The notes below the pieces were generated by a model. It was not told where the DNA came from and searched no databases. It was given only the letters and a program-made list of their open reading frames with translations. This document shows, in pieces, positions 9,721 to 27,863 of a DNA stretch of 64,000 bases (positions are counted from its first letter, which is position 1; the number at the start of each line of letters is the position of its first letter). The stretch covers positions 1 through 64,000 of the forward strand of contig JAJDBX010000075.1 of NCBI GenBank assembly GCA_029261135.1, in the 5' to 3' direction. The position numbers were made by a program, and so were the translations under genes. Source of the stretch: Nitrospirota bacterium. Its GTDB lineage: Bacteria > Nitrospirota > Nitrospiria > SBBL01 > JAADHI01.

Positions 9721-11031
9721 ATGTTTCATCATCGCTTTTATTTAATTTTATTCTCTCTTGTTTGCGTCTTTTTTCCTTGGGAAGGATGGGGAGAACAGGC
9801 CAGGGATGGCTCGAAAGAAAAACCTCTGCTTTTGCAGGAAGCGCTCTCCGAAGCACTGGCTCAAAATCCGGGTCTTAAGAAAATGGACTCAAAAGCAAAG
9901 GCCTTGGCCCAAAAACCCTCGCAAGCGAAGGCCTTGCCAGATCCATATTTAAGCCTCAATGCGCGTAATCTTCCGACCGACAGCTTTGATACCGAACAGG
10001 AGCCGATGACACAATTCCAAGTAGGCATCATGCAGGCCTTTCCTTTTCCCGGAAAACGGGCCTTAAAAAAAGAAACGGCGCAATTTCAGGCACAGGCCGC
10101 AGACAAATCAGTGAGTGAAATGCGCTTGATGCTCATCCGGCAGGTCAAAACGCGCTGGTGGTCAATTTTTAAAAATGACCGGGCTTTAGAGATTATCCAG
10201 CAAAATAAAGCACTGCTCACACAATTTGTTGAAATTGCTCAGACCAAGTACAGAGTGGGGCAGGGTTTACAACAGGATGTGTTACTGGCCCAATTAGAGT
10301 TGTCCAAATTACTTGATCTTGAAATCACCCTTGGTGCGAAGCGACGCAAGGCAGAATCGGCTTTAAATGGCCTTTTGAACCGTCGGACCGAGCAGCCCAT
10401 TTTGATTCCGAAGTCTGTTTCAGAACAGTTGCTCCCGGCCCCGAATGAAAAAGCCTTGCTACAAGCTTATAAAAAAGACCGCCCCCTACTGGCTGCCGTG
10501 AAAGACCAGATCTCTGCCGCTCGCACACGCCTTGATTTAGCCAAAAAAGGCTATGAACCGGATTTCAGACTCGGTGCCGTCTACGGCTACAGGGAGGGAC
10601 AAAACCCGGGTCGCGGAGATCGCTCCGACTTTGTCAGCCTGCTTTTTTCGATGAACCTGCCGATCTACGGGAAAAACAAACAAAGCAAGGCTATTGATCA
10701 GCGCCTGGATGAACTCAGTACGGCACGCTGGTCACTTGCAGACCATCAAAAACAAATTGAAGTAGAAATCTCCGCAACTTTGGCCGGATATCGTCAACTG
10801 AGTGCACAAGTCTCTTTATTTAAAACGGGTATTATTCCACAGGCAAAACAGACCGTCGCTTCGATGTTGTCCGGCTATCAAGTGAACAAAGTCGATTTTC
10901 TTAACCTGGTGCAGGCACAACTCACGCTGTACAACTTTGAAATTCAGTATTGGAAGACATTCAGCGAGGCAAATATCTCATTGGCGCGGCTCGCCCATGT
11001 TATTGGAAAGGAGCAAATCAATGCGAAATAA
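9721..11031 (+). CDS. cusC: TolC-type outer membrane channel of the CusCBA system
   Basis: Outer-membrane efflux channel of 436 residues, with a signal peptide in the first 24 residues and two repeated helical-barrel modules typical of the OEP/TolC family. The segment GIMQAFPFPGKRALKKETA, followed by long amphipathic helices and a second SLLFSMNLPIYGKNKQSKA module, is characteristic. It would form the exit duct for copper or silver passed on by the adaptor and RND pump encoded next. AGGAGGT lies before the ATG, and the end overlaps the adaptor start by 11 bases, a sign of translational coupling. Confidence 0.92.
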   Translation: MFHHRFYLILFSLVCVFFPWEGWGEQARDGSKEKPLLLQEALSEALAQNPGLKKMDSKAKALAQKPSQAKALPDPYLSLNARNLPTDSFDTEQEPMTQFQVGIMQAFPFPGKRALKKETAQFQAQAADKSVSEMRLMLIRQVKTRWWSIFKNDRALEIIQQNKALLTQFVEIAQTKYRVGQGLQQDVLLAQLELSKLLDLEITLGAKRRKAESALNGLLNRRTEQPILIPKSVSEQLLPAPNEKALLQAYKKDRPLLAAVKDQISAARTRLDLAKKGYEPDFRLGAVYGYREGQNPGRGDRSDFVSLLFSMNLPIYGKNKQSKAIDQRLDELSTARWSLADHQKQIEVEISATLAGYRQLSAQVSLFKTGIIPQAKQTVASMLSGYQVNKVDFLNLVQAQLTLYNFEIQYWKTFSEANISLARLAHVIGKEQINAK

Positions 11032-12358
11032 TCTACTGTTTGCGATTGTCGCACTTGTACTCGGATTGTCCGGGGGCTATTGGTTTGCGAATCAGAATCC
11101 AAAGCATGGGGCGAGCCCTGTTTCAGAAACAATCGGCCCCAAGCCTCTCTTTTACCGTCACCCGATGAATCCCGGCATGACCTCGGTCACGCCCACAAAA
11201 GATGACATGGGCATGGCCTATATTCCTGTTTACGCCGATGATGCAAAAAATGAGAATGCCGTCGTCGGTACAGTTAAAATTGATCCCGTCACCACTCAAA
11301 ATATCGGGGTAAGAACAGCGATGGCGGCGTTAAAAACCCTTTCACGCACGATCAAGACCATTGGACGTGTGGACTACGATGAAGAACGCCTTTCCCGTCT
11401 GCACCCGAAAACCCAAGGGTGGATCGAAAAACTCTATATTGATAAAACGGGACAGCCGGTTTCGAAAGACATGTTGTTGCTCAGCATTTATTCGCCGCAG
11501 TTGGTGAGCAGCCAGCAAGAATATTTATTGGCTTTGGACAATCAGAAAGTGCTGGCCGACAGCCCCATTGAAAGCATCCAACAAGGTGCTCAGGCCCTTG
11601 TCGATTCGTCCAGAGAACGCTTGAAACTTTTGGACGTACCGGAGCACCAAATTGAAGAGTTGGAAAAAAAACGGCAGGTTAAACAATATCTGCACATCCA
11701 CTCCCCTTTTGATGGTTTTGTACTACACATTGGCGCACGGCAGGGTCAATTCGTCACGCCTAAAACGGAGATCTACCGCATTGCCGGCCTCAATAAAGTA
11801 TGGGTGTATGTCGATATTTACGAATACGAATTACCCTGGATTACCGTGGGCGATACAGGAGAAATGACACTCACTGCCCTGCCCAGTCAAAGTTTTACCG
11901 GTAAAATCACCTACATTTATCCCTATGTTGAAGCCAAGACACGCACCATCAAAGTCCGTCTCGAATTTGATAATTCAAAAGGCCTGCTGAAACCCGATAT
12001 GTATGCCGAAGTCAGTATTCGGGCTACCCGGCAGATTGATGCTGTTGTAATTCCTTCTGAAGCCATTCTGCGTGCCGATGGAAAAGAACGGGTCTTTGTG
12101 GTGCGCAGTCCCGGAAAATTTGAACCCAGGGCAGTCAAGGTGGGCATCGAATCCGGCAATGAAAGCCAAATTATTGAAGGGCTACGATCGGGCGAAAAGG
12201 TTGTGACCTCGGCACAGTTTCTCATTGATTCGGAAAGCCGTCTGAATGAAGCCGTCGGCAAAATGATGGAGCTAAAAAAAGAAGAGACTTCAGAAGCACC
12301 TGCCTCTGGGGAAAAAGACAGAAATAAAATGGAAGGGATGGAAATGGAGAATAAATAA
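11021..12358 (+). CDS. cusB: RND periplasmic adaptor, CusB-like, with heavy-metal binding domain
   Basis: Membrane-fusion protein of 445 residues linking the RND pump to the outer-membrane channel. The ATG at 11021 follows GGAG and overlaps the cusC stop. One N-terminal helix anchors it, then comes a heavy-metal binding domain with the pattern YRHPMNPGMTS...DMGMAYIPVY (about residues 46-75), rich in His and Met and known from copper/silver systems. Lipoyl, hairpin and beta-barrel domains follow (HSPFDGFVLHIGARQGQFV; KVWVYVDIYEYELPWI). The Met-rich tail (MEGMEMENK) is a further possible Cu(I) site. Together these support monovalent copper or silver export. Confidence 0.93.
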   Translation: MRNNLLFAIVALVLGLSGGYWFANQNPKHGASPVSETIGPKPLFYRHPMNPGMTSVTPTKDDMGMAYIPVYADDAKNENAVVGTVKIDPVTTQNIGVRTAMAALKTLSRTIKTIGRVDYDEERLSRLHPKTQGWIEKLYIDKTGQPVSKDMLLLSIYSPQLVSSQQEYLLALDNQKVLADSPIESIQQGAQALVDSSRERLKLLDVPEHQIEELEKKRQVKQYLHIHSPFDGFVLHIGARQGQFVTPKTEIYRIAGLNKVWVYVDIYEYELPWITVGDTGEMTLTALPSQSFTGKITYIYPYVEAKTRTIKVRLEFDNSKGLLKPDMYAEVSIRATRQIDAVVIPSEAILRADGKERVFVVRSPGKFEPRAVKVGIESGNESQIIEGLRSGEKVVTSAQFLIDSESRLNEAVGKMMELKKEETSEAPASGEKDRNKMEGMEMENK

Positions 12359-12362
12359 AAAC

Positions 12363-12393
12363 GTCATTCCGGCATGATGTAAGCCGGAATGAC
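12363..12393. repeat. REP-like palindrome between cusB and cusA
   Basis: GTCATTCCGGC (12363-12373) and GCCGGAATGAC (12383-12393) form a perfect 11-bp stem with a 9-base loop in the 78-base gap between cusB and cusA. This palindrome type, with GTCATTCC arms, is a common short extragenic repeat in many bacteria. It probably stabilises or tunes the message. No second copy was seen in this window. Confidence 0.75.
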
Positions 12394-12436
12394 AAGAATT
12401 TTCAGTTTTTGAATTTGTAAAAATAAGGATCTCGCC

Positions 12437-15400
12437 GTGATTCGTAAAATCATTGAACTTTCCATCAACAATCGTTTTCTGGTCATCCTTTTCACCCTCA
12501 TGGTTTTGGGTGGCGGCTTGCTTGCCCTGAAAAATACCCCGCTCGACGCCATCCCAGATCTCTCCGATGTCCAGGTCATTGTCATGACAAAATATCCGGG
12601 ACAAGATCCTCAGGTCGTCGAAGATCAAGTCACCTATAGCCTCACCACGGCGATGCTTTCTGTGCCGGCGGCCAAACTGGTTCGTGGCTATTCCTTTTTT
12701 GGTGTGTCTTTTGTGTATATTATTTTTGAAGACGGCACGGACATGTATTGGGCGCGAAGTCGCGTGCTGGAATATCTCAACTTTGTCTCCGACCGGCTGC
12801 CTCCCAATGTCACCCCGAAACTGGGTCCCGATGCTACCGGGGTCGGCTGGGTTTTCCAATATGCCATCGTGGATAAAACCGGCAAATATGATCTGGCCGA
12901 ACTCAGAAGTATTCAAGACTGGTTCCTGCGTTATGAATTGCAAACTGTGCCGGGTGTCGCCGAAGTTGCCAGCATTGGGGGTTTTGTCAAACAGTACCAA
13001 GTCGCGGTCGATCCCAACAAACTGCTCGCCTATAAAATTCCGATTAAGAAAGTCATGATGGCGGTACGACGCAGCAACAACGATGTCGGCGGCCGCTTGC
13101 TCGAAATGGCCGAAACGGAATACATGGTGCGCGGCATCGGTTATCTCAAAGGCATTGATGACCTCAAAAGTATTCCCATTGGTCTTGACCACCAAGGCAC
13201 CCCTATTTTGTTGAAAGATGTGGCACACATCCACATCGGCCCGGAAATTCGCCGGGGACTACTGGATTTCAACGGTGAAGGGGAAGTCGTGGGTGGCATT
13301 GTCATTATGCGCTACGGCGAAAATGCCCTAGAAGTCATCAACGCTGTGAAAGATCGCCTGGAATCGCTTAAAGACAGTCTGCCGGAGGGGGTCGACGTGC
13401 TGGCGATCTATGATCGTTCCAGCCTCATTGAACGTGCCATAGAAACCCTTAAAACATCACTCCTGGAAGAAATGATCGTGGTTGCAGTGGTCTGTGCTGT
13501 TTTCCTGCTTCACTTCCGCTCGGCGCTCGTTGCCATTTTAGTGCTGCCAATCGCTATTTTGATCTCATTTTCCCTGATGTATCTTCAGGGGCTTAATGCA
13601 AATATTATGTCATTAAGTGGCATCGCCATTGCCATCGGCGCGATGATTGATGGGGCCATTGTCATGGTCGAAAATGCCCATAAACATCTGGAACGGGGGA
13701 AGATTACCGACCACTGGAAGATTGTTGCAGAGTCCTCAAAAGAAGTGGGCCCGGCACTGTTCTTTTCGCTCTTAATTATTACCATCTCCTTCATGCCTGT
13801 TTTTACGCTACAGGCGCAAGAAGGACGACTTTTTGCCCCACTGGCCTTCACCAAAACCTATGCCATGGCGGCAGCGGCCCTTCTTTCTATTACGCTCGTA
13901 CCGGTTTTGATGGGTTATCTCATTCGAGGCCGAATTGTTTCAGAAGCAAAAAACCCCATCGTGCGTGCGCTTTTATTTTTCTACCAACCCTTGTTGAAAA
14001 CCGCACTGCGCTTCAAAGAAGGTGTCATCGTTCTTGCCATCCTGGTGGTCGCTGTGACGATGATTCCGCTCAACCGTTTGGGCTCGGAGTTTATGCCGCC
14101 TTTAAACGAAGGCGATATTCTTTACATGCCTTCGACGCTTCCGGGCATTTCGATCACAAAAGTCAAAGAATTACTTCAGCAGACGGACCGCATTATTAAG
14201 ACTTTTCCCGAAGTGCATCATGTATTGGGCAAGGCAGGTCGTGCTGAAACGGCCACCGACCCCGCGCCTTTGAGCATGATGGAAACCGTCATTACCTTAA
14301 AGCCCGAATCGGAGTGGCGAGAGGGTTTGACAATGGAGAAGCTGGTGGAGGAGATGGACACCGCCTTAAATATCCCCGGTGTGTCCAACGCCTGGACGAT
14401 GCCGATTAAAACGCGCATCGACATGCTTTCCACCGGCATCAAAACCCCCGTCGGCATTAAAGTCGCCGGAGAAAATTTGAAAATTTTAGAAACCATCGGG
14501 AAACGGCTGGAGACCGTCCTGAAAAAAGTGCCCGGCACACTCAGCGTTTACAGTGAACGGGTCGCCGGTGGCAATTTCTTGGATATCAATATCCGCCGTG
14601 ATGATGCAGCGCGCTACGGCCTCACGGTGGGTGATATTCAGGAGGTCATCAAATCGGCCTTGGGCGGGATGAATATTACCTACACGGTTGAAGGGCTCGA
14701 ACGCTATCCCGTGAATCTGCGTTATGGTCGCGGCAACCGAGAAAACCTGGGTGAGCTCAAACGCATCTTGATTCCCACACCGATGGGTCGACAGATTCCG
14801 CTGGCTCAGCTTGCAGATATCCAGATCAAACGCGGTGCGCCTGTGCTCAAGAGTGAAAATGCCCGTTTAAATGCCTGGACTTACATCGATATTCGCGACA
14901 TCGATGTCGGTACTTATGTCGCCCAAGCACAAAAAGTGGTGGCGGAAGAGATTCAATTACCCCAGGGCTATACACTAAAGTGGAGCGGTCAGTACGAATA
15001 CATGGAACGTGCCAAGGCGCGTCTCACCCTGGTCGTCCCGCTCACCCTCCTAATCATTTTTTTGCTGCTCTATTTTAATTTTAAAAGTGTCGCGGAAAGC
15101 CTCATCGTCCTCGTGTCTCTCCCTTTTTCCTTTGTGGGTGGTATTTGGCTGATGGATGTTTTGGGCTACAACATGAGCGTCGCCGTCGGTATCGGATTTA
15201 TCGCACTCGCTGGCCTTTCTGTTGAAATTGCCGTTGTCATGCTGGTTTACCTCGACCTCTATTATGAGGAACACCTGCGTAATGGCACACTGCAAACACG
15301 TGAGGACCTGTTTGAAATTATTTTGGAAGGGGCCGGAAAACGCATTCGACCCGTTGTCATGGCCCTCGCCACCACCGTGGGCGGCCTGCTCCCCATTATG

Positions 15401-15550
15401 TGGGGTACGGGCACTGGCTCTCAAGTGATGAAACGTATTGCGGCCCCGATGGTGGGCGGCATGCTCTCCTCTACCGTCCTCACACTCCTGGTCATTCCGG
15501 CGATCTACGCTCTTTGGAAGGGTTGGAGTCTGAAAGAAAAAACCGAATAA
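12437..15550 (+). CDS. cusA: CusA-type Cu(I)/Ag(I) RND efflux pump
   Basis: Inner-membrane proton-driven RND pump of 1037 residues with twelve helices and two large periplasmic loops. The TM4 motif GIAIAIGAMIDGAIVMVENAHK in the CusA/SilA form, rather than the divalent CzcA form, points to monovalent metals. The three methionines that bind Cu(I) in E. coli CusA (M573, M623, M672) are all present at M564 (ILYMPSTLPG), M614 (PLSMMETV) and M663 (RIDMLSTG), with a constant offset of nine. The start is GTG after AAGGA. It follows cusC and cusB in one operon; a decayed P-II gene comes next. Confidence 0.96.
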   Translation: MIRKIIELSINNRFLVILFTLMVLGGGLLALKNTPLDAIPDLSDVQVIVMTKYPGQDPQVVEDQVTYSLTTAMLSVPAAKLVRGYSFFGVSFVYIIFEDGTDMYWARSRVLEYLNFVSDRLPPNVTPKLGPDATGVGWVFQYAIVDKTGKYDLAELRSIQDWFLRYELQTVPGVAEVASIGGFVKQYQVAVDPNKLLAYKIPIKKVMMAVRRSNNDVGGRLLEMAETEYMVRGIGYLKGIDDLKSIPIGLDHQGTPILLKDVAHIHIGPEIRRGLLDFNGEGEVVGGIVIMRYGENALEVINAVKDRLESLKDSLPEGVDVLAIYDRSSLIERAIETLKTSLLEEMIVVAVVCAVFLLHFRSALVAILVLPIAILISFSLMYLQGLNANIMSLSGIAIAIGAMIDGAIVMVENAHKHLERGKITDHWKIVAESSKEVGPALFFSLLIITISFMPVFTLQAQEGRLFAPLAFTKTYAMAAAALLSITLVPVLMGYLIRGRIVSEAKNPIVRALLFFYQPLLKTALRFKEGVIVLAILVVAVTMIPLNRLGSEFMPPLNEGDILYMPSTLPGISITKVKELLQQTDRIIKTFPEVHHVLGKAGRAETATDPAPLSMMETVITLKPESEWREGLTMEKLVEEMDTALNIPGVSNAWTMPIKTRIDMLSTGIKTPVGIKVAGENLKILETIGKRLETVLKKVPGTLSVYSERVAGGNFLDINIRRDDAARYGLTVGDIQEVIKSALGGMNITYTVEGLERYPVNLRYGRGNRENLGELKRILIPTPMGRQIPLAQLADIQIKRGAPVLKSENARLNAWTYIDIRDIDVGTYVAQAQKVVAEEIQLPQGYTLKWSGQYEYMERAKARLTLVVPLTLLIIFLLLYFNFKSVAESLIVLVSLPFSFVGGIWLMDVLGYNMSVAVGIGFIALAGLSVEIAVVMLVYLDLYYEEHLRNGTLQTREDLFEIILEGAGKRIRPVVMALATTVGGLLPIMWGTGTGSQVMKRIAAPMVGGMLSSTVLTLLVIPAIYALWKGWSLKEKTE

Positions 15551-15618: not shown

Positions 15619-15978
15619 CTGAAAGAAATCAAAGCTTATGTGAGAACCCTCAAGGTTGAAGAAGTCATCCGAGCGCTCTAAGCGGCGGGCATGCCTGGTA
15701 TCTGCGTCATCAATGTGAATACCTTCTGTTTTCCATCAGAGGTCGAGCTTTAACGCAAAAAGATGTCGCTTGAATACGTGGAAAATGACCGCCATATTTC
15801 AAAACTGGAGATTGTCTGCCAAGATGCGGACACCTCCGGCTTTGTGGATATCATCCAAAGAAAGGCCTTTACCAGACACAAAGGAGGCGGTTATATCTTT
15901 GTCTCCGAAATCAAAGAAGCCGCCAAAATCTGAATCGGCGAGAGGGATAATGCGGCCTTGCGTAATCCACATCAATAA
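15619..15978 (+). pseudogene. P-II family protein gene with three in-frame stops
   Basis: One uninterrupted frame of 120 codons encodes a recognisable P-II-like signal protein: a KEIKAYVRTLKVEEVIRAL start, a GMPGICVINV strand, KLEIVCQD, HKGGGYIFVSEIKEAAKI and a final IGERD segment. It is broken by TAA at 15679-15681, TAA at 15751-15753 and TGA at 15931-15933 (probably from CGA), and the start codon is CTG. A ribosome site (AAGGAG) survives. P-II-like genes linked to RND metal pumps are a known subgroup (PII-NG). Loss by substitution without frame changes suggests fairly recent decay. A second broken P-II gene follows the other RND pump at 31054. Confidence 0.85.
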
Positions 15979-16049
15979 AACTGACTTCAAACCCAGGTTC
16001 ACGCTCGGAACTTGACATCGGCGAGGTTTTTAGTCTAAAAGAGGAATTG

Positions 16050-16406
16050 GTGAAAACGACACACACACAAACCCAAAAGCTATTGCTCTGGGTCGTGATC
16101 CTTGTGGCGGCCACTTCTCTCTGCGGTATTGGCAGCTTTCAGAAGGATATGCCCCATTCCAGTGAATCGTCGCATGCGGCTTTCAGTTGTATGCTCGGTT
16201 CCTGCGATACTCTGACTTCCAAAAGCCTCTCCATACCCGATACCGTCAAGGGGTTTCTCTGTTTGCTCAGCCTGGCGCTGCTCCCTCTCTTGTTCCATCT
16301 TTTCTACCTTGAGGCACCCGCCCAAATCGCATTTCTCAGAGATCCACACTTACACAAGAGAAATGCGCCCCGACTTTACCAGCTTCACGCCACATACCTG
16401 ATTTGA
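16050..16406 (+). CDS. Hypothetical membrane protein of the copper island (118 aa)
   Basis: Unrecognised protein with two hydrophobic helices, about residues 10-28 and 68-90, the first possibly a signal anchor. Between them lies a short periplasmic segment with two Cys (CMLGSC) and several His and Ser, which could bind metal. The GTG start at 16050 follows GAGG. The C-terminal tail is basic and His-rich (DPHLHKRNAPRLYQLH). It sits between the decayed P-II gene and the cytochrome-porin gene on the same strand and resembles the small accessory proteins often found in metal-efflux clusters. Confidence 0.55.
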   Translation: MKTTHTQTQKLLLWVVILVAATSLCGIGSFQKDMPHSSESSHAAFSCMLGSCDTLTSKSLSIPDTVKGFLCLLSLALLPLLFHLFYLEAPAQIAFLRDPHLHKRNAPRLYQLHATYLI

Positions 16407-16494
16407 TCCGAACCATTTTTTAATATTTTTTACTCCAATTCATTTGGAGCAATGGATCAGAACAGACTTGTTTTCCTGTTGAGAGGAGTACGTG

Positions 16495-17886
16495 ATGCTA
16501 AAGTTGAGCCAAGTTACGGTCTTTTTTTTGATTTTGGGAGTCCTGATTCCCTTATTTTTTCCAGCTTCCGCCAAGGCTATTCCGGCCTTTGCGAGAAAAT
16601 ATGATATGTCCTGTACCTCCTGCCACACGAAGCCGCCGAGGCTTAACGCCTTCGGGGAGGCCTTTCACATGGCGGGTTACCAAATTCCACAAACCAAAGA
16701 AGGCGAGCTTCGGAAAAAGCGGCAGATTGGGCGTATTTACTCCGAAAAAGAACTGCTGAATATTTTTGCGCTCCGAGCGACGGGTAACTTCGCCGAGTCG
16801 GTATCCGGTGGCAATCCGGTCGAAACGAACCTGGCTCTACCTCGCGAAATCGAACTGTATTTTGGCGGAACGTTTACCGATGACATCAGTTATTTCTTCA
16901 ACTTTAGTAATGAAATTGATACGATTGAAGGGATTGAAAACAATCTGTTTGAAGAAAAGACCGCCTTTGGTCTTGGAAAAGAATTTTTCCTCATGTTTGA
17001 TCTTGGGCCCGCAATCTTAAGAAAGCCCTCAGGCAATATGAGCAGCATGAGTGGCCCCATGATGATGGGGCCAATGATCATGGTCGGCAAGGTCGACCCT
17101 TCAACCAATTTTTCTTATTCGACCAACCGCCAATTTGTGATCAATAGTCCGGGCCGCGTCGATAAAAACGGGAACATACAACGGTTTACGCTTGCCCCCT
17201 ATGCTTTCGCCGCAAAATTCTTCGGACTTCAAACGGGGGAGGGCAAGTCACTCGAAGTCACGCGATCCGTGCTCTACAACTCTGCGGGGGATTTCGGTTT
17301 GGATGTGCATGCCATGATGGGCCGATTTATGTTTCAGGCGGGTCTCATGCAAGGCATTGAAGCAGGGACGACTGACATCAACGAAAAAAAAGATCCCTAC
17401 CTCATGGCCCGCATGAATTTCGGGGGCACAAACTATTTTTCCGGCAGTGTTTCAGGGCTCGTGAATTGGGGAAACGATACCGCCATGGTGGGCAATCAAC
17501 TCATCGATTGGTTCCGATATGGATTTGCCGGCAATGTGAAATACGAATTACTCGATATTTACGGCGCAATTATTTGGGATGAACTGAGCGGTTTGCCTTC
17601 AAGTATCGCCGAAAATTTTGACGACAGCGCGATGGGTTTAACGATTGAAGGGGATCTGATCATCACAGATCAACATTTACTTTCTCTTCGTTACGATCAG
17701 ATGGAGGCCGGTGGTTTTTTGAGCCAAAAGGCGGACGGAAAAACCTTGACCCTGCAAGTCCGAAAATACTATCGAGATAACTTTGCCCTTTACTTTCGGG
17801 ACACCGTCAATGTTGGGACAGTCAGTGATAACCCGCTTCAAAATTTCCGACATTTGATCGCAATGGGTATCGATTTTGATTTTTAG
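16495..17886 (+). CDS. Outer-membrane cytochrome-porin fusion (Cyc2-like)
   Basis: Exported protein of 463 residues. After a signal peptide (about 1-28) the mature start AIPAFARKYDMSCTSCHTKPPRL carries a single haem site CTSCH (40-44), followed by the PPRLNAFGEAFHMAGY motif. The rest is a run of alternating amphipathic strands (for example REIELYFGGTFTDDISYFFNFS) ending in an aromatic strand with a terminal Phe, the signature of a beta-barrel. The layout of one haem at the mouth of a porin matches cytochrome-porin fusions such as Cyc2 and related proteins. A Met-rich loop (NMSSMSGPMMMGPMIMVG, about 182-199) is unusual and could bind copper. The substrate is unknown: electron uptake, iron or copper oxidation are all possible. 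GAGAGGAG precedes the ATG. Confidence 0.75.
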   Translation: MLKLSQVTVFFLILGVLIPLFFPASAKAIPAFARKYDMSCTSCHTKPPRLNAFGEAFHMAGYQIPQTKEGELRKKRQIGRIYSEKELLNIFALRATGNFAESVSGGNPVETNLALPREIELYFGGTFTDDISYFFNFSNEIDTIEGIENNLFEEKTAFGLGKEFFLMFDLGPAILRKPSGNMSSMSGPMMMGPMIMVGKVDPSTNFSYSTNRQFVINSPGRVDKNGNIQRFTLAPYAFAAKFFGLQTGEGKSLEVTRSVLYNSAGDFGLDVHAMMGRFMFQAGLMQGIEAGTTDINEKKDPYLMARMNFGGTNYFSGSVSGLVNWGNDTAMVGNQLIDWFRYGFAGNVKYELLDIYGAIIWDELSGLPSSIAENFDDSAMGLTIEGDLIITDQHLLSLRYDQMEAGGFLSQKADGKTLTLQVRKYYRDNFALYFRDTVNVGTVSDNPLQNFRHLIAMGIDFDF

Positions 17887-17942: not shown

Positions 17943-18848
17943 ATGCATTTCAGCAATAAAAAAATTGGACAAACAGGACTTTTCATTTTTGTCATCACGC
18001 TCTCCATCGCGACACAAGTCCGATCACAAGAGATGGATCACTCCACAATGAATATGGAAAAAAGTGAAGTGAAAGAAGACAAATCCGTGGATCATTCTTC
18101 CATGGATATGGGGACGGACATGACAAAAGAGAAGGGCGATATGAAAAACATGCCCGGTATGGGCAAGATGAACGATCCCGATGCCATGGCAGTCATGCGC
18201 GGCAAAATGATTTTTCAGATGAGCTGCTTTTTATGTCACGGAGCAAAGGGAGAAGGCGATGGGCCCGCAGCAAGGTTTATCGGGCCATACTCGCACCCGA
18301 GACCCAATAATTTCACAATGGGTATTTTTAAATTCCGCTCGACGGAGTCAGGGGATCTGCCTATGCTCAAAGACCTGATGCGGACAATTCGTGAAGGTAT
18401 TCCCGGTTACATGCCTTCCTTCCGGAATGTGGGTGAAGAGGGCATCAAGTCCGTGGCGATGTATATCGCAAAAGAATTCATTCAGGAAGAACTGCCGACC
18501 ACGACAACCATCAAGTATGCCAAACACGTCGGCCCCTATACTTATTCGGCTAAGAGTGCTTGGCGCGGTGGTCTGCTTTTTAAAATCATGAAATGCAGTG
18601 AATGTCACGGCGATGATGGCAAGGCAGGGAGAATGGATCTCAAAGATGAAAGAAAGCTGATGATCCACCCGATTGATCTCACACGGCAGGAAACCTTCGG
18701 CAACGGCACATCCCATGAAGATATCTATCGCACCATCATGACCGGACTCGACGGCACCCCCATGCCCGGCTACAACGATTCTTTTCTAGGAGAAGAGGGA
18801 AGTGCCTGGGATCTGGTTCACTATATTCTGTCTCTACAGGGGCGGTGA
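17943..18848 (+). CDS. Periplasmic diheme cytochrome c with Met/His-rich N-terminus
   Basis: 301-residue exported protein: a signal peptide (about 1-29), then a Met/His/Asp-rich linker (MDHSTMNMEK, VDHSSMDMGTDM, MKNMPGMGKM) like copper-binding stretches of periplasmic copper proteins, then two cytochrome c domains with haem sites CFLCH (95-99) and CSECH (218-222). Likely axial Met residues lie in GYMPSF and GTPMPGYND. It follows the cytochrome-porin gene by 56 bases with AAAGGAGG before the ATG, so the two are probably made together. A natural role would be electron transfer between the outer-membrane haem and the inner membrane, with copper sensing or buffering. Confidence 0.9.
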   Translation: MHFSNKKIGQTGLFIFVITLSIATQVRSQEMDHSTMNMEKSEVKEDKSVDHSSMDMGTDMTKEKGDMKNMPGMGKMNDPDAMAVMRGKMIFQMSCFLCHGAKGEGDGPAARFIGPYSHPRPNNFTMGIFKFRSTESGDLPMLKDLMRTIREGIPGYMPSFRNVGEEGIKSVAMYIAKEFIQEELPTTTTIKYAKHVGPYTYSAKSAWRGGLLFKIMKCSECHGDDGKAGRMDLKDERKLMIHPIDLTRQETFGNGTSHEDIYRTIMTGLDGTPMPGYNDSFLGEEGSAWDLVHYILSLQGR

Positions 18849-18903
18849 ATGAACAGAAGGAAAAAGACAATCGAGATCAACAACAAACAGTGAGGGATAA
18901 AAA

Positions 18904-19141
18904 ATGAAAACGCAGGTTCTATTGATTGCTATTCTATCCACATTTTTTACTTTTTCGATGGTCGATGCCGTTCCTTATTGGTTTACCTGACTTTTTTATT
19001 ACTTCCCATGAAACCATGGACAAGGGCGCAAAAACAGTCGTGACCTTCGTCCCTTTTAAAAATGGTGGTTTTAGCTATCACTGTATTTTGGAGAACCACC
19101 GCGAGATGGGCATGGAGGGAGAACTCATTGTCATTCATTGA
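18904..19141 (+). pseudogene. Cupredoxin (plastocyanin-like) gene, internally deleted and frameshifted
   Basis: The ATG at 18904 opens a clear signal peptide (MKTQVLLIAILSTFF...MVDA) that ends at a TGA near 18990. A second frame then carries the end of a cupredoxin: KGAKTVVTFVPFKNGGFSYHC, followed by ILENHREMGMEGELIVIH, with the Cys, His and Met copper ligands of a type 1 site. The part expected between them (the first His ligand and several strands) is missing, so there is a deletion as well as a frame change. It lies between the diheme cytochrome and the FMN protein. Originally it was probably a small periplasmic blue-copper electron carrier. Confidence 0.75.
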
Positions 19142-19167
19142 GAACGCCCTCAGGGAGAGGCATTGAA

Positions 19168-20688
19168 ATGAATAACATCGAAGAAGGGGTTCGACACCTC
19201 TTTGGCGAGAGAATGGGCGGACTCATGTTTCCGGACTGGGTGGCACACGGGCTGGAGCTTCTGGCTCTTGCTCTCATTCTGCTTGTCAGCACGATCCTGC
19301 TTATCCTTGTCACCCTCTTCATTATTGATATCACGCAACACCGAAACGCTGTCCGGCGCAACTACCCCGTGCTGGGCCGTTTTCGCTATCTCTTCATCCG
19401 GGCCGGGGAATTTTTTCGGCAATATTTCTTTGCCATGGACCGAGAAGAGATGCCCTTCAACCGGGCCGAACGGGATTGGGTCAATCGTGCGGCAAACAAT
19501 ACGGACAACACCATCCCTTTTGGTTCCACAAATAATCTGAACATCGTCGGCACGCCGATTTTCCTAAGCTGTGCTTTTCCGGAACTGGGAAGCGATGCTG
19601 TGAAATCGCTGCCGATGGAAATCGGCCCCTACTGCCAGAAGCCCTACCTTGTGCCTTCCATCTTCAACATCTCGGGCATGAGTTATGGTGCCCTTTCTAT
19701 CCCTGCGGTTCGGGCACTCTCCCTTGGCGCAAAATTGGCAGGGTGTTGGTTGAACACCGGAGAAGGGGGCTTGTCCCCCTATCATCTGGAAGGGGGCTGT
19801 GATCTCGTTTTTCAGATCGGCACGGCCAAATATGGTATCCGTCAGGCGGACGGACGCCTTGACGAAGAGAAGTTGCGCTCAGTCGCAAAGCAGGCGCAAG
19901 TCAAAATGTTTGAGGTCAAACTGAGCCAGGGCGCCAAGCCGGGTAAGGGCGGCATTTTGCCCGGTGCAAAGGTCACCCCTGAAATCGCGGCCATACGGGG
20001 GATTAAGCAGGGGGAGGATTCCATCTCACCGAACCGGCATCCGGAAATAAATTCCGTCAGCGCCTTACTCGATTTTATCCAGCAGATCAGAGAGATGACG
20101 GGAAAACCGGTGGGCTTCAAAACTGTTCTCGGAGAACGGGAATGGTTGGATGAATTGTGTCGCGAGATTGAGAGACGGGGCATTGAGAGCGCGCCTGATT
20201 TTATAACAATCGATGGTGGCGACGGCGGTTCCGGGGCTGCGCCGATGGCTTTAATGGACAATGTGGGACTTCCACTGAGTGAGGCCTTGCCCATGGTCGA
20301 TGGCATTCTTGTCCAGAATCGGCTCAAAAAACGTATTCGTCTGATTGCTTCAGGCAAACTGATCACGCCCGCCAACGTTGCCTGGGCCTTGTGTGCCGGT
20401 GCGGATTTTATCAACGCCGCACGTGGATTCATGTTTGCCCTAGGTTGCATCCAGGCGCTCAAATGCAACAAGAATATTTGTCCAACGGGTGTGACATCGC
20501 ACAATCCACGATATCAATCAGGCCTCAATCCAAAATATAAGTCCGTCCGTGTCGCAAACTACTGTCGGAATATTGTGCATGAGGTGGAAATCATTGCACA
20601 CGCCTGCGGCGTGAAAGAGCCGCGTGCCTTGCAGCGCAGCCATGTCAGAATTGTAGGGGGAGATGTTTTTTCTAACCCCATGCTGTGA
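19168..20688 (+). CDS. FMN-binding glutamate synthase-like protein, membrane-anchored
   Basis: 506-residue protein with an N-terminal membrane helix (about 29-55) and a C-terminal glutamate synthase FMN/Fe-S domain. Seen are VPSIFNISGMSYGALSIPA, the GAKPGKGGILPG loop, SPNRHPEINS, the ITIDGGDGGSGAAP flavin-binding segment and three cysteines spaced C-x5-C-x4-C (near 427-440), the spacing of the 3Fe-4S cluster of GltB. The amidotransferase domain is absent. Stand-alone proteins of this kind are known but their reaction is mostly uncharacterised. Its position among cytochromes and copper genes suggests a redox role rather than nitrogen assimilation; this is inference. The ATG at 19168 follows AGGGAGAGG. 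Confidence 0.88.
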   Translation: MNNIEEGVRHLFGERMGGLMFPDWVAHGLELLALALILLVSTILLILVTLFIIDITQHRNAVRRNYPVLGRFRYLFIRAGEFFRQYFFAMDREEMPFNRAERDWVNRAANNTDNTIPFGSTNNLNIVGTPIFLSCAFPELGSDAVKSLPMEIGPYCQKPYLVPSIFNISGMSYGALSIPAVRALSLGAKLAGCWLNTGEGGLSPYHLEGGCDLVFQIGTAKYGIRQADGRLDEEKLRSVAKQAQVKMFEVKLSQGAKPGKGGILPGAKVTPEIAAIRGIKQGEDSISPNRHPEINSVSALLDFIQQIREMTGKPVGFKTVLGEREWLDELCREIERRGIESAPDFITIDGGDGGSGAAPMALMDNVGLPLSEALPMVDGILVQNRLKKRIRLIASGKLITPANVAWALCAGADFINAARGFMFALGCIQALKCNKNICPTGVTSHNPRYQSGLNPKYKSVRVANYCRNIVHEVEIIAHACGVKEPRALQRSHVRIVGGDVFSNPML

Positions 20689-20769: not shown

Positions 20770-21177
20770 ATGACTGTTACTCAACTGGCGAAACAAGTCG
20801 GTATTTCTTCTGAGATTGTCCGGCATTACACACGAATCGGACTTTTGAAGCCCACCCGGAACGCCCAAAACGGCTACCGGATTTTTTCTGCCGAGGATAT
20901 GAAACGACTCAAATTCATCCTCAGGGCCAAGGGTCTTGGCTTCACCCTTTCCGAAATTGGACAAATCTTAGAGCATACGAAAATCCACGACTCTCCCTGC
21001 CCCCTCGTGCGTGATCTTATCGCTCGACGGATTAAAGAAAACCGTGAAAAGCTTGATGCGATGGCTTGTTTGCAGATTCGCATGGAAAAGGCCCTCGCCC
21101 AATGGAAAGAAATGCCCGATGGGATACCGGACGGGCACTCCGTTTGTCATCTGATTGAAGCGATGGATGATCTGTAA
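20770..21177 (+). CDS. MerR-family metal-responsive regulator
   Basis: 135 residues: a MerR winged helix at the N-terminus (VTQLAKQVGISSEIVRHYTR, then IGLLKP and NGYRIFSAEDMKRLKFI), a dimerisation helix, and metal-type cysteines at SPCPLVRDL (about 77) and HSVCHLIE (about 127), plus Cys100. The arrangement resembles the CadR/ZntR/PbrR branch with a CPLVR-type motif rather than classical CueR, so the metal is uncertain. GGAGG precedes the ATG. A promoter of MerR type begins nine bases after its stop and reads into the cytochrome and copper ATPase genes, which are the likely targets. An AAATGAG/CTCATTT repeat upstream (20711-20739) may be autoregulatory. Confidence 0.93.
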   Translation: MTVTQLAKQVGISSEIVRHYTRIGLLKPTRNAQNGYRIFSAEDMKRLKFILRAKGLGFTLSEIGQILEHTKIHDSPCPLVRDLIARRIKENREKLDAMACLQIRMEKALAQWKEMPDGIPDGHSVCHLIEAMDDL

Positions 21178-21300: not shown

Positions 21301-21933
21301 ATGAAAACTGTCTTAATGACTTTAAGCACAATTATTATTCTTAGTCTTTTAGGCGGCTTGACTGTAATGTACGCCGGATTATTTAACGTGGCAACAGCGT
21401 GGGAAGATCCGGCCTTGGTCCGCTGGGTTTTGAACACCACACGGGAGAAGGCGGTCGCACGCCGCGCGGCATCAATTGAAGTGCCTTCATTAGGTGATGA
21501 GAAACAAGTGGAAGAGGGCTTTCGGAGTTATCGCGAGATGTGTGCGATTTGCCATACCCCACCCGGGGCCGATGCCTCCCCGACCGCCCAGGGCTTGAAC
21601 CCTGAGCCGCCTGATCTGTCAAAACACGTCGAGCACATGTCTGAAGCCGAGTTATTTTGGGTGATTAAAAACGGCGTTCGTATGACGGGCATGCCCGCAT
21701 GGGGGCCGACACATGACGATACCGAGCTTTGGAATGTTGTTGCTTTTGTTAAGGCTTTGCCCACGATGGGTGGCGCGGGCTATCGCGCCTTGGATCAGCA
21801 AGCGGAAAAAGGACATAGTCACAGCGGCGGCGGGCATGGAGACGAAACTCAGATGGGTGCAGAAAGGGAAGCCGGCCACGACAATGAACCCCATGAAGAA
21901 GCGGAACATCAAGATGACGGGCACGCACATTAA
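21301..21933 (+). CDS. Membrane-anchored monoheme cytochrome c with His-rich tail
   Basis: 210 residues: an N-terminal hydrophobic anchor (about 4-28), then a cytochrome c domain with haem site CAICH (81-85) and axial Met in GVRMTGMPAWGP. The last 45 residues are a His/Glu/Gly-rich tail (HSHSGGGHGDE...HDNEPHEEAEHQDDGHAH) that would bind metal ions. GCAAAGGAG precedes the ATG. It lies behind the MerR-type promoter and 26 bases before the copper ATPase gene, so its expression should be metal-induced. The tail could buffer periplasmic copper or zinc while the haem accepts electrons; this is inferred from composition. Confidence 0.9.
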   Translation: MKTVLMTLSTIIILSLLGGLTVMYAGLFNVATAWEDPALVRWVLNTTREKAVARRAASIEVPSLGDEKQVEEGFRSYREMCAICHTPPGADASPTAQGLNPEPPDLSKHVEHMSEAELFWVIKNGVRMTGMPAWGPTHDDTELWNVVAFVKALPTMGGAGYRALDQQAEKGHSHSGGGHGDETQMGAEREAGHDNEPHEEAEHQDDGHAH

Positions 21934-21959: not shown

Positions 21960-24260
21960 ATGGTCAAAGATGTTGTTTGTGGGATGGAAATCGAAGCCGA
22001 ATCGGCGGCGGGCACACATGAGTACGCCAGGAAAACCTATTATTTTTGCAGTGCCTATTGTCTCTCCACGTTTCAAAAAGAACCTGAAAAATATCTCGTA
22101 TCTTCTAAGGAAGAAATAAAAGAAGAAAAGACCAAAACTGAATCGGAGGCGATCTACACTTGCCCTATGCACCCGGAAATCGAGCAAGTCGGACCGGGAG
22201 ACTGCCCCAAGTGCGGGATGGACTTGGAAGCGCGTAGCATCGAGAAAGAAGAGGACACGCGCGAACTCGATGATATGAATCGGCGTTTTTGGGTGAGTGC
22301 CGTCTTAGCCATTCCCATTTTTTTCAGTGCGATGGCGGCGGAAATGTGGCCGGAGGCCATGGCCGAGCTCTTCGAGCCGAAACTGAGGCAGTGGATCGAA
22401 CTGGCACTTTCCGCCCCCGTCGTGTGGTGGGCTGGGTGGATTTTTTATGTGCGGGGCTGGAAGTCTATCGTCACCCGAAATCTGAACATGTTTACCCTCA
22501 TTTCGATCGGTGTGAGCGTCGCCTGGTTTTACTCCCTGGTCGGTGTTTTAATGCCGGGCCTTTTCCCCGCCACCGTCTTCAATGAATTTGGCGTCATCCC
22601 AGTCTATTTTGAGGCAGCTGCTGTGATCACCGCCCTGGTGCTTCTTGGCCAAGTACTGGAATTACGTGCACGCAGCCAAACCAATGCCGCTATCAAACTT
22701 TTGCTCGGACTTGCGCCCAAAACAGCCCGCATTGTCCGAGAAGACGGCAGCGAAGAGGACATCCCCTTGGAACATGTGCAGCGCGGAAACATTTTGCGTA
22801 TCCGTCCCGGCGAAAAAGTGCCGGTGGATGGTCGGGTTGTCGAAGGGGAAAGCAATGTGGATGAATCGATGGTGACGGGAGAACCCATTCCCGTTGAAAA
22901 ATCCACGGGAGAAAAACTTATCGGCGCGACCATCAACGGCACCGGCGGACTGCTGATGACGGCGGAAAAAGTGGGTGCCGATACCCTGCTCTCCCAAATC
23001 GTCAAAATGGTGGCCGACGCCCAGCGCACGCGCGCTCCCATCCAAAAGTTGGTCGATGTCGTGGCGAGTTATTTTGTTCCCATTGTCGTCTTCATTGCGG
23101 TCTTGACCTTCGTTATTTGGGCTCTCGTTGGCCCAGAACCGGCGATTGCTTATGCCGTGATTAACGCCGTGGCGGTTTTGATTATGGCCTGCCCCTGCGC
23201 TCTCGGCCTGGCGACACCGATGTCCATCATGGTCGGAACCGGCAAAGGGGCGATGATGGGCGTCTTAATTAAAAATGCTGAAGCTCTGGAAATTTTGAGA
23301 AAGGTCGATACCTTGGTGGTCGATAAAACTGGCACCCTCACAGAAGGGAAGCCAAAATTGGTGGCGGTTACGACCTTCAATGGTTTTGAAGAGGCGCAGG
23401 CCTTAAGTTTAGCCGCCAGCTTAGAACGGTCGAGTGAACACCCTTTGGCTGAGGCAATTGTCCGGGGGGCCGAAGCGCGTGGTGTTGTGCTGAGCAAGGC
23501 AAACAACTTCCAGTCTCTGACCGGCTTAGGGGTCACAGGGGAGGTGGATGGCCACACCGTGGTCCTTGGTAACATCAAGCTCTTAGAAAATTTGGACATT
23601 AAGGCAGGTGAACTCCCGGAACAGGCTGATCTTCAACGAGCTGATGGCCAAACGGTAATGTTTTTGGGCATTGATGGCAAAGCCGCCGCACTTGTTGGTG
23701 TTGCCGATCCGATTAAAGCATCCACTCCAGAGGCCATCCGAAACCTGCACAATGAAGGCATTAAAGTGGTGATGTTGACCGGAGACAGCTTAAAAACCGC
23801 GGAAGCCGTCGCGGCAAAACTGGATATCGATCAAGTCCAGGCCGAAGTGCTGCCTGATCAAAAGGCTTCTGTTGTTAAACAATTGCAAGCGGAAGGACGG
23901 ATTGTGGCAATGGCCGGCGACGGCATCAACGACGCCCCGGCTTTGGCGCAAGCCCAAGTCGGCATCGCCATGGGCACAGGAACAGACGTTGCGATGGAAA
24001 GTGCGGGTGTAACATTGGTCAAAGGAGATTTGCGCGGCATCGTACGGGCGCGGCGGTTGAGCCGGGCAACGATGGCAAACATCCGCCAAAACCTTTTCTT
24101 TGCTTTTGTCTACAACGCGCTCGGGGTGCCGGTGGCCGCTGGAATCTTATATCCGGTTTTCGGTCTACTGCTTTCTCCGATGATCGCAGCGGCTGCGATG
24201 AGCTTCAGCTCGGTATCGGTTATCATGAATGCCCTGCGTTTGAAAGGGGCGAAATTGTAA
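21960..24260 (+). CDS. copA: Copper/silver-exporting P1B-type ATPase (CopA/SilP-like)
   Basis: 766-residue metal-pumping ATPase. The N-terminus lacks the usual CxxC ferredoxin-like domain and instead has a YHS domain ([18 protein letters not shown]) and a heavy-metal binding motif ([11 protein letters not shown]...CPKCGMDLE, about residues 63-88), as in SilP-type pumps. Then come the membrane CPC site ([12 protein letters not shown], about 411), the phosphorylation loop DKTGTLTEG (D455), and the hinge [10 protein letters not shown] (about 653). It exports Cu(I) or Ag(I) from the cytoplasm to the periplasm, where CusCBA can carry it out. CAAGGAGGT precedes the ATG. Metal-induced control through the upstream MerR-type promoter is likely. 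Confidence 0.96.
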
Positions 24261-24990: not shown

Positions 24991-26343
24991 ATGGTTTTTG
25001 TTGTTACTGTTTTATCACTTATCATATTTGTTGGTGGTGCACTTGGAGATATTGCGCTCACTTTTGCCGCATCTCCACTTTCTGAAGCCCGTTCCCTGGG
25101 CAGCGAATTCCACTCAGTTCAACCGGATGACCTGGGCACCTCTTCCGCATTTCCAGACTTAAAAGTTCCCTCTGCCGCGCTTATCCTGGAACAGGCTCTT
25201 GCATTGGCTTTGATGAAAAATCCTGAGCTGACCGCGATTTCGTGGGAGCTACGTGCGCGCGACGCGGCGAAGCTTCAGGCCGGCTTGTTGCCAAACCCCG
25301 TATTCAGTTTTGAGATCGAAAATTTTATTGGCACCGGCGCACTCAGTGGAACCGATGCCGCAGAAGCAACGCTTTCGCTTGAGCAACGTTTTGAAACGGC
25401 GGGCAAACGTGGAAAACGAAAAAAAGTGGCCGCGCTCGACAGGGTGCTGGCTGGATGGGACTATGAAAGCTTACGGCTTGATCTGTTTACCGAGGTTTCG
25501 CAAATTTTTGTCGAGGTTTTGGGCGATCAGGAAAAAGTGAAGCTAGCGGAAGATTTATTAAAGCTTGCGTCTCAGGTGGCCGAGGCCGTCGAAAGGCGGG
25601 TGGATGCAGGAAAGGTGTCTCCTGTTGAAGCCGTGAAAGCAAAGGTCGCACTTTCATCGGCGAAGATCGATTTAAACCGCTCGGAACGCGAACTGATTGC
25701 TTCCCGCCTTACCTTGGCCGCGATGTGGGGCAGCACCGATCCGAAATTTAAATCCGTTGAAGGTCAGTTAAGTCCCCCCGCAACCCTCCCCTCTTTTGAA
25801 ATAGTTTCCGAGCGTCTTTCACAAAACCCGGAACTGGCGCGATGGGACGCGGAATTGGCCCAGAGAGCCGCGGTGGTCGATTTGGAAAAAGCGAATGCGG
25901 TGCCGGACATCTCCCTTGGCGGCGGTTTCCGGCAATTTAACGAAACGGACGATAGCACCTTGGTCGCAGGGATTTCCATGGACCTGCCGCTTTTTGATCG
26001 AAACCAGGGCAATATTCAAGAGGCGAGGGCGACGCATTCCCGAGCGATGGCGAAACGGGAAGCCGTAGTTCTGCGTATAAGAACCGCCTTGGCGCAGGCG
26101 TACAGGTTTTTATCCACGACACATGCCGAGGCGGAGGGTCTCAAGAACGAGCTTTTGCCAGGGGCGGAAAAAGCCTTCTCCGCGGTGAGTGAAGGTTACC
26201 GTCTCGGAAAGTTTGATTTGCTTGATGTCCTGGATGCGCAACGGACGCTCTCTCAAGCCCGTGCGCAACATCTACAGACACAAATCGACTACCAGAAAGC
26301 GCTCGCCGACGTAGAGCGCCTGATTGCAGAAAAATTAAGGTAG
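24991..26343 (+). CDS. czcC: TolC-family outer membrane channel, CzcC-like
   Basis: 450-residue outer-membrane factor. After a signal sequence (about 1-28) two OEP repeats follow: the first includes LEQALALALMKNPELTAISWE and LNPNPV-like LLPNPVFSFEIENF, with SLEQRFETAGKRGKR; the second contains GISMDLPLFDRNQGNIQEA. GKRGKR-type motifs are typical of CzcC. The protein forms the exit channel for the RND system encoded next. GGAG precedes the ATG at a spacing of seven. It is about 30% longer in its N-terminal periplasmic linker than the cusC product and clearly a separate paralogue. Confidence 0.92.
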   Translation: MVFVVTVLSLIIFVGGALGDIALTFAASPLSEARSLGSEFHSVQPDDLGTSSAFPDLKVPSAALILEQALALALMKNPELTAISWELRARDAAKLQAGLLPNPVFSFEIENFIGTGALSGTDAAEATLSLEQRFETAGKRGKRKKVAALDRVLAGWDYESLRLDLFTEVSQIFVEVLGDQEKVKLAEDLLKLASQVAEAVERRVDAGKVSPVEAVKAKVALSSAKIDLNRSERELIASRLTLAAMWGSTDPKFKSVEGQLSPPATLPSFEIVSERLSQNPELARWDAELAQRAAVVDLEKANAVPDISLGGGFRQFNETDDSTLVAGISMDLPLFDRNQGNIQEARATHSRAMAKREAVVLRIRTALAQAYRFLSTTHAEAEGLKNELLPGAEKAFSAVSEGYRLGKFDLLDVLDAQRTLSQARAQHLQTQIDYQKALADVERLIAEKLR

Positions 26344-26374
26344 GGGCGCGTGCCCAGACAGAAGGGGATTCACA

Positions 26375-27724
26375 ATGGAAAGCAATGAAGAAAACGCGAC
26401 AAGCAAAAAAAAGTCTAAACCGCGGATTCCGATATTAATTGTTCTGGTCATCTTAGCTGGTGTGCTCTGGTTTTGGTCGACAAATCGTGGGGTGAGCGAA
26501 GAAGTCACGCCCGTCGCGGATCGTGAAGACAAAGATGCGGCAGAAGAGGAACACGGTCATGATGAAGGCGCGGTGCACGATGAGGAAGGGCATTCGGAAG
26601 CAGGCCACGACGATCATGAGGAAGGTGAAGATGCCCATGGTGGTCACGATGAACATGGAGAAAAACAGGCGATTAAACTCAGCGAAGCAGAAATGAAAGA
26701 GTTTGGGATCAAAGTCCTCAAAGCGGATGCGGGTACACTCAGGCGCTATGTGGATTTACCCGGAGAAGTCCGTGCGAATGGCGATCGCTTGGCGCATATC
26801 GTGCCGCGCGTGCCCGGCGTCGTCCGTAAAGTATTCAAAGGGTTGGGCGATCATGTGAAAAAAGGCGAAGTAATGGCGATATTGGACAGCCGTGAACTTT
26901 CGGATACGAAGGCGGACTTCCTGGCTGCGAGCGAACGGGTGATACTGGCAGAAGTCAACTTTACGCGAGAAGAATCGCTTTGGAAGAAAAAAATCTCTTC
27001 CGAACAAGAATACCTTGAGGCGAAGCAGGCCTTGGCCGAAGCGCAAATCGAACGCCGCTCTGCGGAGCAAAAACTACATGCTCTGGGTTTCTCAAATCGC
27101 TATCTCAAAGACCTCTCCAAGCATCCCGAAGAGTCTTTTACCCAATACAAGATCACAGCACCATTTTCCGGTACCGTCATAAAAAAACACATTACGCTGG
27201 GTGAAGTTTTAAAGGATGACACGAGTGCTTTTATTGTTGCCGATTTAAGCTCCGTTTGGGTGGATTTAAGTGTCTATCAAAAAGACCTGGGCGCGCTTTC
27301 AGAAGGTCAGTCCGTTGTGATCGAAGCGGCACAGGGCAATATAAAAACGGAGGGAAAGATTTCCTACTTGGGTCCGGTGGTCGGAGAGGCTACCCGCACG
27401 GCGCTTGCCCGGATTGTGCTTCCGAACAAGGATGGCAAGTGGCGTCCTGGTCTTTTTGTGAATGCAAAAATTGCAGTGAGTGAAACCGAGGCAGGTCTGG
27501 TTGTTCCAAAGTCGGCCATTCAAAAAATAAAAGACGAGGATATTTTGTTTGTGATGGAAGCGGGTGCTTTTGAAGCAAAACAAGTAAGACTGGGTCGGAG
27601 CGATGAAGACTTTGTTGAGATAACAGAAGGCATCTATTGGGGGGATTCCTACGTTGCAGAAGGCGGGTTTACTTTGCGTGCCCAACTTGGCGTCGGCGAC
27701 TTAGGTGATGGTCACAATCATTAG
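26375..27724 (+). CDS. czcB: RND periplasmic adaptor with His-rich domain, CzcB-like
   Basis: 449-residue membrane-fusion protein: one N-terminal membrane helix (about 18-35), a long His/Asp/Glu-rich segment (about 55-97, with repeated GHDE, HDDHEEGED and GGHDEHGEK), then the adaptor core (VPGVVRKVFKGLGDHVKKG lipoyl half, coiled hairpin, ITAPFSGTVIKKH, VWVDLSVYQKDLGAL). The C-terminus ends in His-rich DGHNH. Such His-rich entries fit divalent metals (zinc, cobalt, nickel, cadmium), in contrast to the Met-rich CusB upstream. AGAAGGGG precedes the ATG. It lies between the channel and pump genes in one operon. Confidence 0.93.
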   Translation: MESNEENATSKKKSKPRIPILIVLVILAGVLWFWSTNRGVSEEVTPVADREDKDAAEEEHGHDEGAVHDEEGHSEAGHDDHEEGEDAHGGHDEHGEKQAIKLSEAEMKEFGIKVLKADAGTLRRYVDLPGEVRANGDRLAHIVPRVPGVVRKVFKGLGDHVKKGEVMAILDSRELSDTKADFLAASERVILAEVNFTREESLWKKKISSEQEYLEAKQALAEAQIERRSAEQKLHALGFSNRYLKDLSKHPEESFTQYKITAPFSGTVIKKHITLGEVLKDDTSAFIVADLSSVWVDLSVYQKDLGALSEGQSVVIEAAQGNIKTEGKISYLGPVVGEATRTALARIVLPNKDGKWRPGLFVNAKIAVSETEAGLVVPKSAIQKIKDEDILFVMEAGAFEAKQVRLGRSDEDFVEITEGIYWGDSYVAEGGFTLRAQLGVGDLGDGHNH

Positions 27725-27746
27725 AGACTGGAGCCGAGGGTGCGAT

Positions 27747-27851
27747 ATGACAGACGAACTTGTTTATCATTCCCGTATGATCCTAGCCGGAGTGACGGTG
27801 ATCTTGCTTTAAGCGTTCATCCCGATATTAAACAAGTTATTCCCTAAATAA
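27747..27851 (+). pseudogene. Small membrane-peptide ORF with one internal stop
   Basis: From ATG at 27747 a frame encodes a short hydrophobic peptide (MTDELVYHSRMILAGVTVILL), stops at TAA 27810-27812, and continues in the same frame with AFIPILNKLFPK to a second TAA. Together they would make one 33-residue single-helix protein. It sits between czcB and czcA. The internal stop suggests decay, but the piece is too short for certainty and could be meaningless. Confidence 0.3.
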
Positions 27852-27863
27852 AGGAAGATTAAA

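Follow-up and report, generated by a model that had tools for sequence, protein, structure and literature searches.

The closest described systems are the Cyc2 proteins of Mariprofundus ferrooxydans PV-1 and Acidithiobacillus ferrooxidans and the Cyt572 of Leptospirillum, compared with the protein reported here by published description. These proteins have in common a signal peptide, the motif AXPXFAR[KQ][TY], a single CXXCH, PXL and a 16-strand porin in a chain of more than 365 residues. According to the published definition, AXPXFAR[Q/K][T/Y] stands just before the haem site, one CXXCH is present with PXL about four residues further on, and the protein, of at least 365 residues, has a C-terminal β-barrel porin, predicted to have 16 strands in PV-1 (Keffer et al., 2021; PMC8406198). 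Its further criteria are a match to a FeGenie Cyc2 HMM, a place in cluster 1, 2 or 3, and Fe(II) oxidation. In the iron pathway of A. ferrooxidans, Cyc2 passes electrons to rusticyanin and to the dihaem cytochrome Cyc1 (PMC10654088). MtrAB, MtoAB and PCC systems are likewise outer-membrane electron conduits; unlike Cyc2, they use a multihaem cytochrome that is a chain of its own and sits in a barrel of larger size.

A cytochrome-porin of 463 residues is encoded at 16495..17886 (+) of the window, i.e., the whole 64,000-nt stretch of Nitrospirota DNA analysed here, which belongs to a genome of 3.22 Mb in 77 contigs. The reading frame starts at ATG 16495 or GTG 16492, its stop codon ends at 17886, and it comprises a signal peptide, a mono-haem N-terminal domain and a predicted 16-strand barrel. 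The signal peptide is followed by AIPAFARKYDMSCTSCHTKPPRLNAFGEAF and then by a long remainder. The sequence AIPAFARKY (residues 28–36; 16576..16602, +) is an instance of the Cyc2-defining motif (PMC8406198) and ends three residues ahead of the CTSCH haem c site (residues 40–44; 16612..16626, +). This site is the only CXXCH of the protein (C40–H44), lies about 13 residues past the signal peptide and is followed by PRL (48–50). Since the motif, the CXXCH with PXL, and the length with a barrel are all present, the protein is, by the published motif definition, a fused cytochrome-porin of Cyc2 type, broadly understood, a sequence-based assignment that carries no claim of iron oxidation. The fusion architecture read from the DNA in an earlier note thus holds, with the Cyc2 motif, a single CTSCH and a predicted barrel (PMC8406198). 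With one haem site and 16 strands in a single polypeptide, the protein is not of the MtrAB type.

Family searches returned little. Neither Pfam nor NCBIfam gave a family match, a sequence search of the PDB found no relative, and none was found among the PLSDB plasmids. In Pfam, the protein does not match the CopB/PcoB barrel family (PF05275), nor does it match Porin_O_P (PF07396), which matches two of 65 relatives (best E 3e-4). It contains no domain of the cupredoxin multidomain oxidases (CueO, PcoA type). The host genome encodes a 53% identical cytochrome-porin on contig C40 and a more distant one on C59; stop-broken fragments of a further copy lie on contig C41 (281934–282218; genome G000).

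AlphaFold2, run with a 65-sequence alignment, produced a model with a mean pLDDT of 82.7 and a pTM of 0.82, superseding a first run with 11 close orthologs (pLDDT 51). The model, which contains no haem, has 16 strands within residues 91–462: strands 1–8 at 91–104, 110–126, 131–147, 151–169, 190–200, 266–275, 278–286 and 299–312, and strands 9–16 at 315–332, 335–350, 353–365, 378–389, 394–408, 415–427, 430–439 and 453–462. Foldseek against the PDB retrieved the 16-strand porins OmpU, OmpF and Omp32 (best E 4e-11, probability 1.00), and the family profile also matches porins weakly at the sequence level. The C-terminal residue is Phe, the usual outer-membrane signature. A barrel of 14–18 strands had been named as the structural check on the earlier note, and the 16 predicted strands, with porins as the nearest PDB folds, bear it out. 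From porin architecture, both termini would be periplasmic and the connections that follow even-numbered strands would be periplasmic turns. In the model, these turns are 2–4 residues long, with the sole exception of a 20-residue connection between strands 4 and 5, which bears a run of Met residues. Because this connection follows an even strand, strand count would turn the Met loop towards the periplasm, where the partner cytochrome and the protein's own haem domain lie, and away from the cell surface. The structural check named in the earlier note, which had the loop face the pore or the surface, is corrected in one respect: by strand parity, the connection of strands 4 and 5 would be periplasmic rather than exposed at the surface.

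The Met-rich stretch covers residues 182–196 (17038..17082, +), i.e., the strand 4–5 connection and the start of strand 5. It holds seven Met; when the mature protein is shuffled 20,000 times, 19 of the resulting sequences have as many within 20 residues. In orthologs, it is conserved as GPMxMGPMxMxGK, with 5–8 Met in the homologous segment of all 14 Nitrospirota orthologs vs. 0–3 in 93 further cytochrome-porins (Nitrospirota, Acidobacteriota, Myxococcota, Bacteroidota and other groups); the paralog on C40 has one. The run is not a product of chance, as it is kept in the orthologs and missing from all 93 other cytochrome-porins aligned; it is a genuine mark of the clade. With the Met columns left out, tree building recovered the 14 orthologs as one group (SH-aLRT 95), with the C40 paralog next (100) and Nitrospira-type proteins as sister (96).

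The loop is not the only place where this clade departs from its relatives. Among diagnostic columns, those in which the clade has a fixed residue that is rare elsewhere, 10 of 57 are Met or His (8 Met, 2 His) vs. 1 of 42 in the Nitrospira-type sister group (p = 0.02, or 0.07 when the loop is left out), and Met is the commonest clade-diagnostic residue. The ten columns are H58, M59, M167, M189, M194, M196, H272, M274, M285 and M304. At pore and haem-domain positions, the clade has Met/His where Arg, Leu or Phe is found elsewhere. In other cytochrome-porins, position 196 is mostly Arg or Lys, and positions 274 and 304 are often Arg. The pore lining thus looks to have been switched from Arg to Met/His in the clade, an impression drawn from charged residues at strand positions that we take to point into the pore. 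In the haem domain, the pair H58–M59 (16666..16671, +), R/L/E elsewhere, is invariant in the clade and may supply the sixth ligand of the haem or a ligand to copper. Cyc2 and Cyt572, as described, differ from the clade in the Met-rich strand 4–5 connection, the pore Met/His and the copper-efflux neighbours.

As in the cyc2–cyc1 arrangement, the cytochrome-porin gene is followed by a gene for a dihaem cytochrome c (301 aa; 17943..18848, +), which begins 56 bases past it in the window and adjoins it in every clade locus whose contig extends that far. The Nitrospira-type sister group (L015–L034, L127–L135) has the same gene pair, with about 36% identity for the cytochrome-porin and about 43% for the pair. 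In the window, Met and His abound at the N-terminus of the mature dihaem protein (MDHSTMNM...MPGMGKM; 18033..18182, +); the clade's motifs here (MDHSTMNM, MDHSKMNM, HDMSSMNH) are strongest in the window's near relatives and are missing from the partners of the Nitrospira sister group and of the Met-poor paralog. Unlike the clade, the sister group also has no Met loop, carries Arg at 196 and 274, and has a Cu ATPase within 10 kb in 0/9 loci. The Met-poor paralog (L044:9833–12580; G000 contig C40) has its own dihaem cytochrome upstream, with a long insert between the haems and an N-terminus that is not Met-rich.

The gene pair lies amid metal-efflux genes. Upstream is a heavy-metal RND efflux system of the TolC-CusB-CusA type (9721..15550, +); a P-II family-like remnant with in-frame stops is found just 3' of its CusA gene (15619–15934). 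A 119-aa protein with a CxxxxCxT motif and an LHATYLI end follows (16047..16406, +), and about nine clade loci have a comparable ORF ahead of the cytochrome-porin. Downstream of the dihaem cytochrome, a cupredoxin remnant with an internal deletion and a broken frame (18903..19142, +) precedes a glutamate-synthase-like FMN protein with a membrane anchor (19138..20688, +). In the related locus L049, where the counterpart of the FMN protein is 85% identical, an intact cupredoxin relative occupies the same place (PF13473, E 2e-4, below the curated cut-off), so that cytochrome-porin, dihaem cytochrome and cupredoxin parallel Cyc2, Cyc1 and rusticyanin (PMC10654088). Further genes encode a MerR-family regulator (20770..21177, +), a mono-haem cytochrome c with a His-rich tail (21301..21933, +), a P1B-1 type Cu(I)-exporting ATPase with CPC, YNxxxxP and MSFSS (21960..24260, +) and a second RND efflux system of the TolC-CzcB-CzcA type (24991..30983, +). 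The regulator was rejected as CueR, as it is without the Cys loop (CX7C) and its best scores, to MerR/ZntR models, fall short of the cut-offs of these models. An inverted repeat, CTCCAA-N5-TTGGAG (16433–16449), was set aside as a MerR operator because it is not found upstream of orthologs, and comparison of the upstream regions revealed no operator common to them.

When cytochrome-porin loci are compared, 7 of 14 in the clade have a P1B-type Cu ATPase no more than 10 kb away vs. 0 of 85 others (p = 2e-7), or 7/12 vs. 0/61 when only loci with at least 10 kb of total flank are counted. Five of the seven are 72–100% identical to the window's ATPase and two are distant (41–42%); because the five are mutual close relatives, the seven cases are not independent events and perhaps represent three origins. 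Only two good matches to the window's ATPase occur in the host genome. No copper gene occurs within the stretch examined around three distant clade members (L042, L043, L054). Very Met-rich secreted proteins (24–29% Met) are encoded within 10 kb in three clade loci, and no strongly Met-rich secreted protein was found in 1.29 Mb of control DNA. They are small, lie on the minus strand within the same 20 kb as the cytochrome-porin in L039, L040 and L041, and are exemplified by QMGGGGMMKG...MMGEMMGMMHEMM. CopB/PcoB occurs in 0 of 13 clade genomes vs. 6 of 16 sister genomes (p = 0.02, not corrected for kinship). Multicopper-oxidase matches in clade genomes are to very large (870–1700 aa) or small (297–342 aa) frames, and none is of CueO/PcoA size. 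The copper linkage of the clade is well supported, and the earlier note's step from the Met run to copper gains backing from the clade's Met/His residues, the Met-rich partner cytochrome and the Cu-ATPase neighbours.

The named MAGs nearest to the host are Nitrospirota OFTM211, 244 and 308, from an Oslofjord subsea tunnel to judge from the OFTM names, and 'Ca. Troglogloeales'. A study of this tunnel reported Cyc2 in MAGs of the order SBBL01 and proposed Mn oxidation (PMC11442690). Within the order, the family designated f2, probably the Manganitrophus group, has genomes mostly of 4–5 Mb that carry other cytochrome-porins, and the Met-clade gene is present in 0/6 of them. The gene is therefore disfavoured as a core Mn oxidase of Manganitrophus. 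In ten clade genomes checked for terminal oxidases (G000, G159, G139, G255, G175, G329, G299, G157, G185 and G241), the search for COX1-type haem-copper oxidases (PF00115) gave no match, and bd-like oxidase matches are present in all, mostly as frames of 500–830 aa. Outside the clade, an acidobacterial locus (L093:1024–8885) has a TolC-CusB-CusA RND run, a small protein and, as the last gene of the run, a cytochrome-porin with a Met-rich linker (MKPMPGM). Because this protein is far from the Met clade in the tree, it is apparently an independent parallel, suggesting that cytochrome-porins have joined metal efflux more than once. In a kapabacterial locus (L082:1100–7161), a cytochrome-porin with a DPMMRKMFMAGHSHGG loop stands beside two cupredoxin-like genes, with a NapH/NosR-like gene and a CoxII-cytochrome fusion nearby.

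The reading that we tentatively favour, with a chance a little short of even, is that of a copper-adapted Cyc2-type variant which, with its dihaem partner, takes electrons from Cu(I) and hands them to the respiratory chain. Met and His in the periplasmic loop, the pore, the haem domain and the partner would be consistent with Cu(I), a soft metal. On this reading, Cu(I) would be held by the Met loop at the periplasmic face and, beside the haem domain (H58, M59), by pore Met/His (M194, M196, H272, M274 and M304). The single haem would oxidise Cu(I), yielding Cu(II), which is less toxic, and the electron would pass to the Met/His-rich dihaem cytochrome, or to the cupredoxin where present, and on to the respiratory chain. 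The haem module would stand in for the multicopper oxidase role of PcoA/PcoB or CueO. That the protein is a haem-based cuprous oxidase in the full sense, an outer-membrane cytochrome-porin oxidising Cu(I) with entry of the electron into respiration, is a more doubtful proposition. The locus resembles PcoA/PcoB (CopA/CopB) and CueO in its context of envelope copper detoxification and its Met-rich parts, and PcoA/PcoB also in pairing an outer-membrane barrel with a periplasmic redox protein; it differs in that haem electron transfer would replace the multicopper oxidase, and no sequence relation was found. Met content alone is no proof of Cu(I) binding, nor binding of oxidation; we infer Cu(I) binding, the direction of electron flow, turnover and cuprous-oxidase activity from sequence. 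The MerR regulator, which is not a canonical CueR, the kinship of five of the seven Cu ATPases, the distant clade members without a copper gene in the stretch examined, the lack of an operator common to orthologs and the very large multicopper oxidases of clade genomes speak against this reading.

Several other readings draw on the same observations. The gene may encode an ordinary Cyc2 for Fe(II)/Mn(II) lithotrophy, beside which the copper genes are incidental and the Met residues tune the haem or partner docking. Relatives come from Oslofjord tunnel biofilms, where SBBL01 MAGs with Cyc2 are proposed Mn oxidisers (PMC11442690), one candidate Mn(II) oxidase in Manganitrophaceae is Cyc2 (PMC9040806), and the pairing with a dihaem cytochrome is that of the A. 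ferrooxidans iron pathway (PMC10654088). Absence of the Met-clade gene from all six f2 genomes, which have other cytochrome-porins, and the association with Cu ATPases (7/14 vs. 0/85) nevertheless make this reading unlikely. Fe(II) and Mn(II) are harder metal ions, and a change of pore Arg to Met/His would not be expected for either.

A role in copper binding, storage or outer-membrane transit, as an export pore or uptake gate with a structural or sensing haem, would fit the two RND systems and the Cu ATPase that flank the gene, the clade genomes without CopB/PcoB barrels and the several barrel positions fixed as Met/His. However, the gene is tightly paired with that of a dihaem cytochrome c in clade and sister group alike, which favours electron transfer, and copper export is already performed by the RND systems; we regard such a role as quite improbable. 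Cytochrome-porins are electron conduits and their sequence is not expected to tell direction, so electrons could also flow outward and reduce extracellular Cu(II) or metal oxides. This would be very surprising, as turning Cu(II) into the more toxic Cu(I) would work against the copper efflux genes nearby, and the pair of genes looks like the oxidative cyc2–cyc1 pair.

Cyc2 homologues are taken as markers of iron oxidation by microbes. In surveys that rely on them, a copper-adapted clade whose members pass the Cyc2 motif test would systematically give false positives. If Cu(I) is indeed oxidised, the cytochrome-porin family serves metals beyond Fe and Mn, mutating the Arg-to-Met/His pore positions would directly test what governs metal choice, and these bacteria would possess a route of copper detoxification independent of a multicopper oxidase or of O2 at the site.
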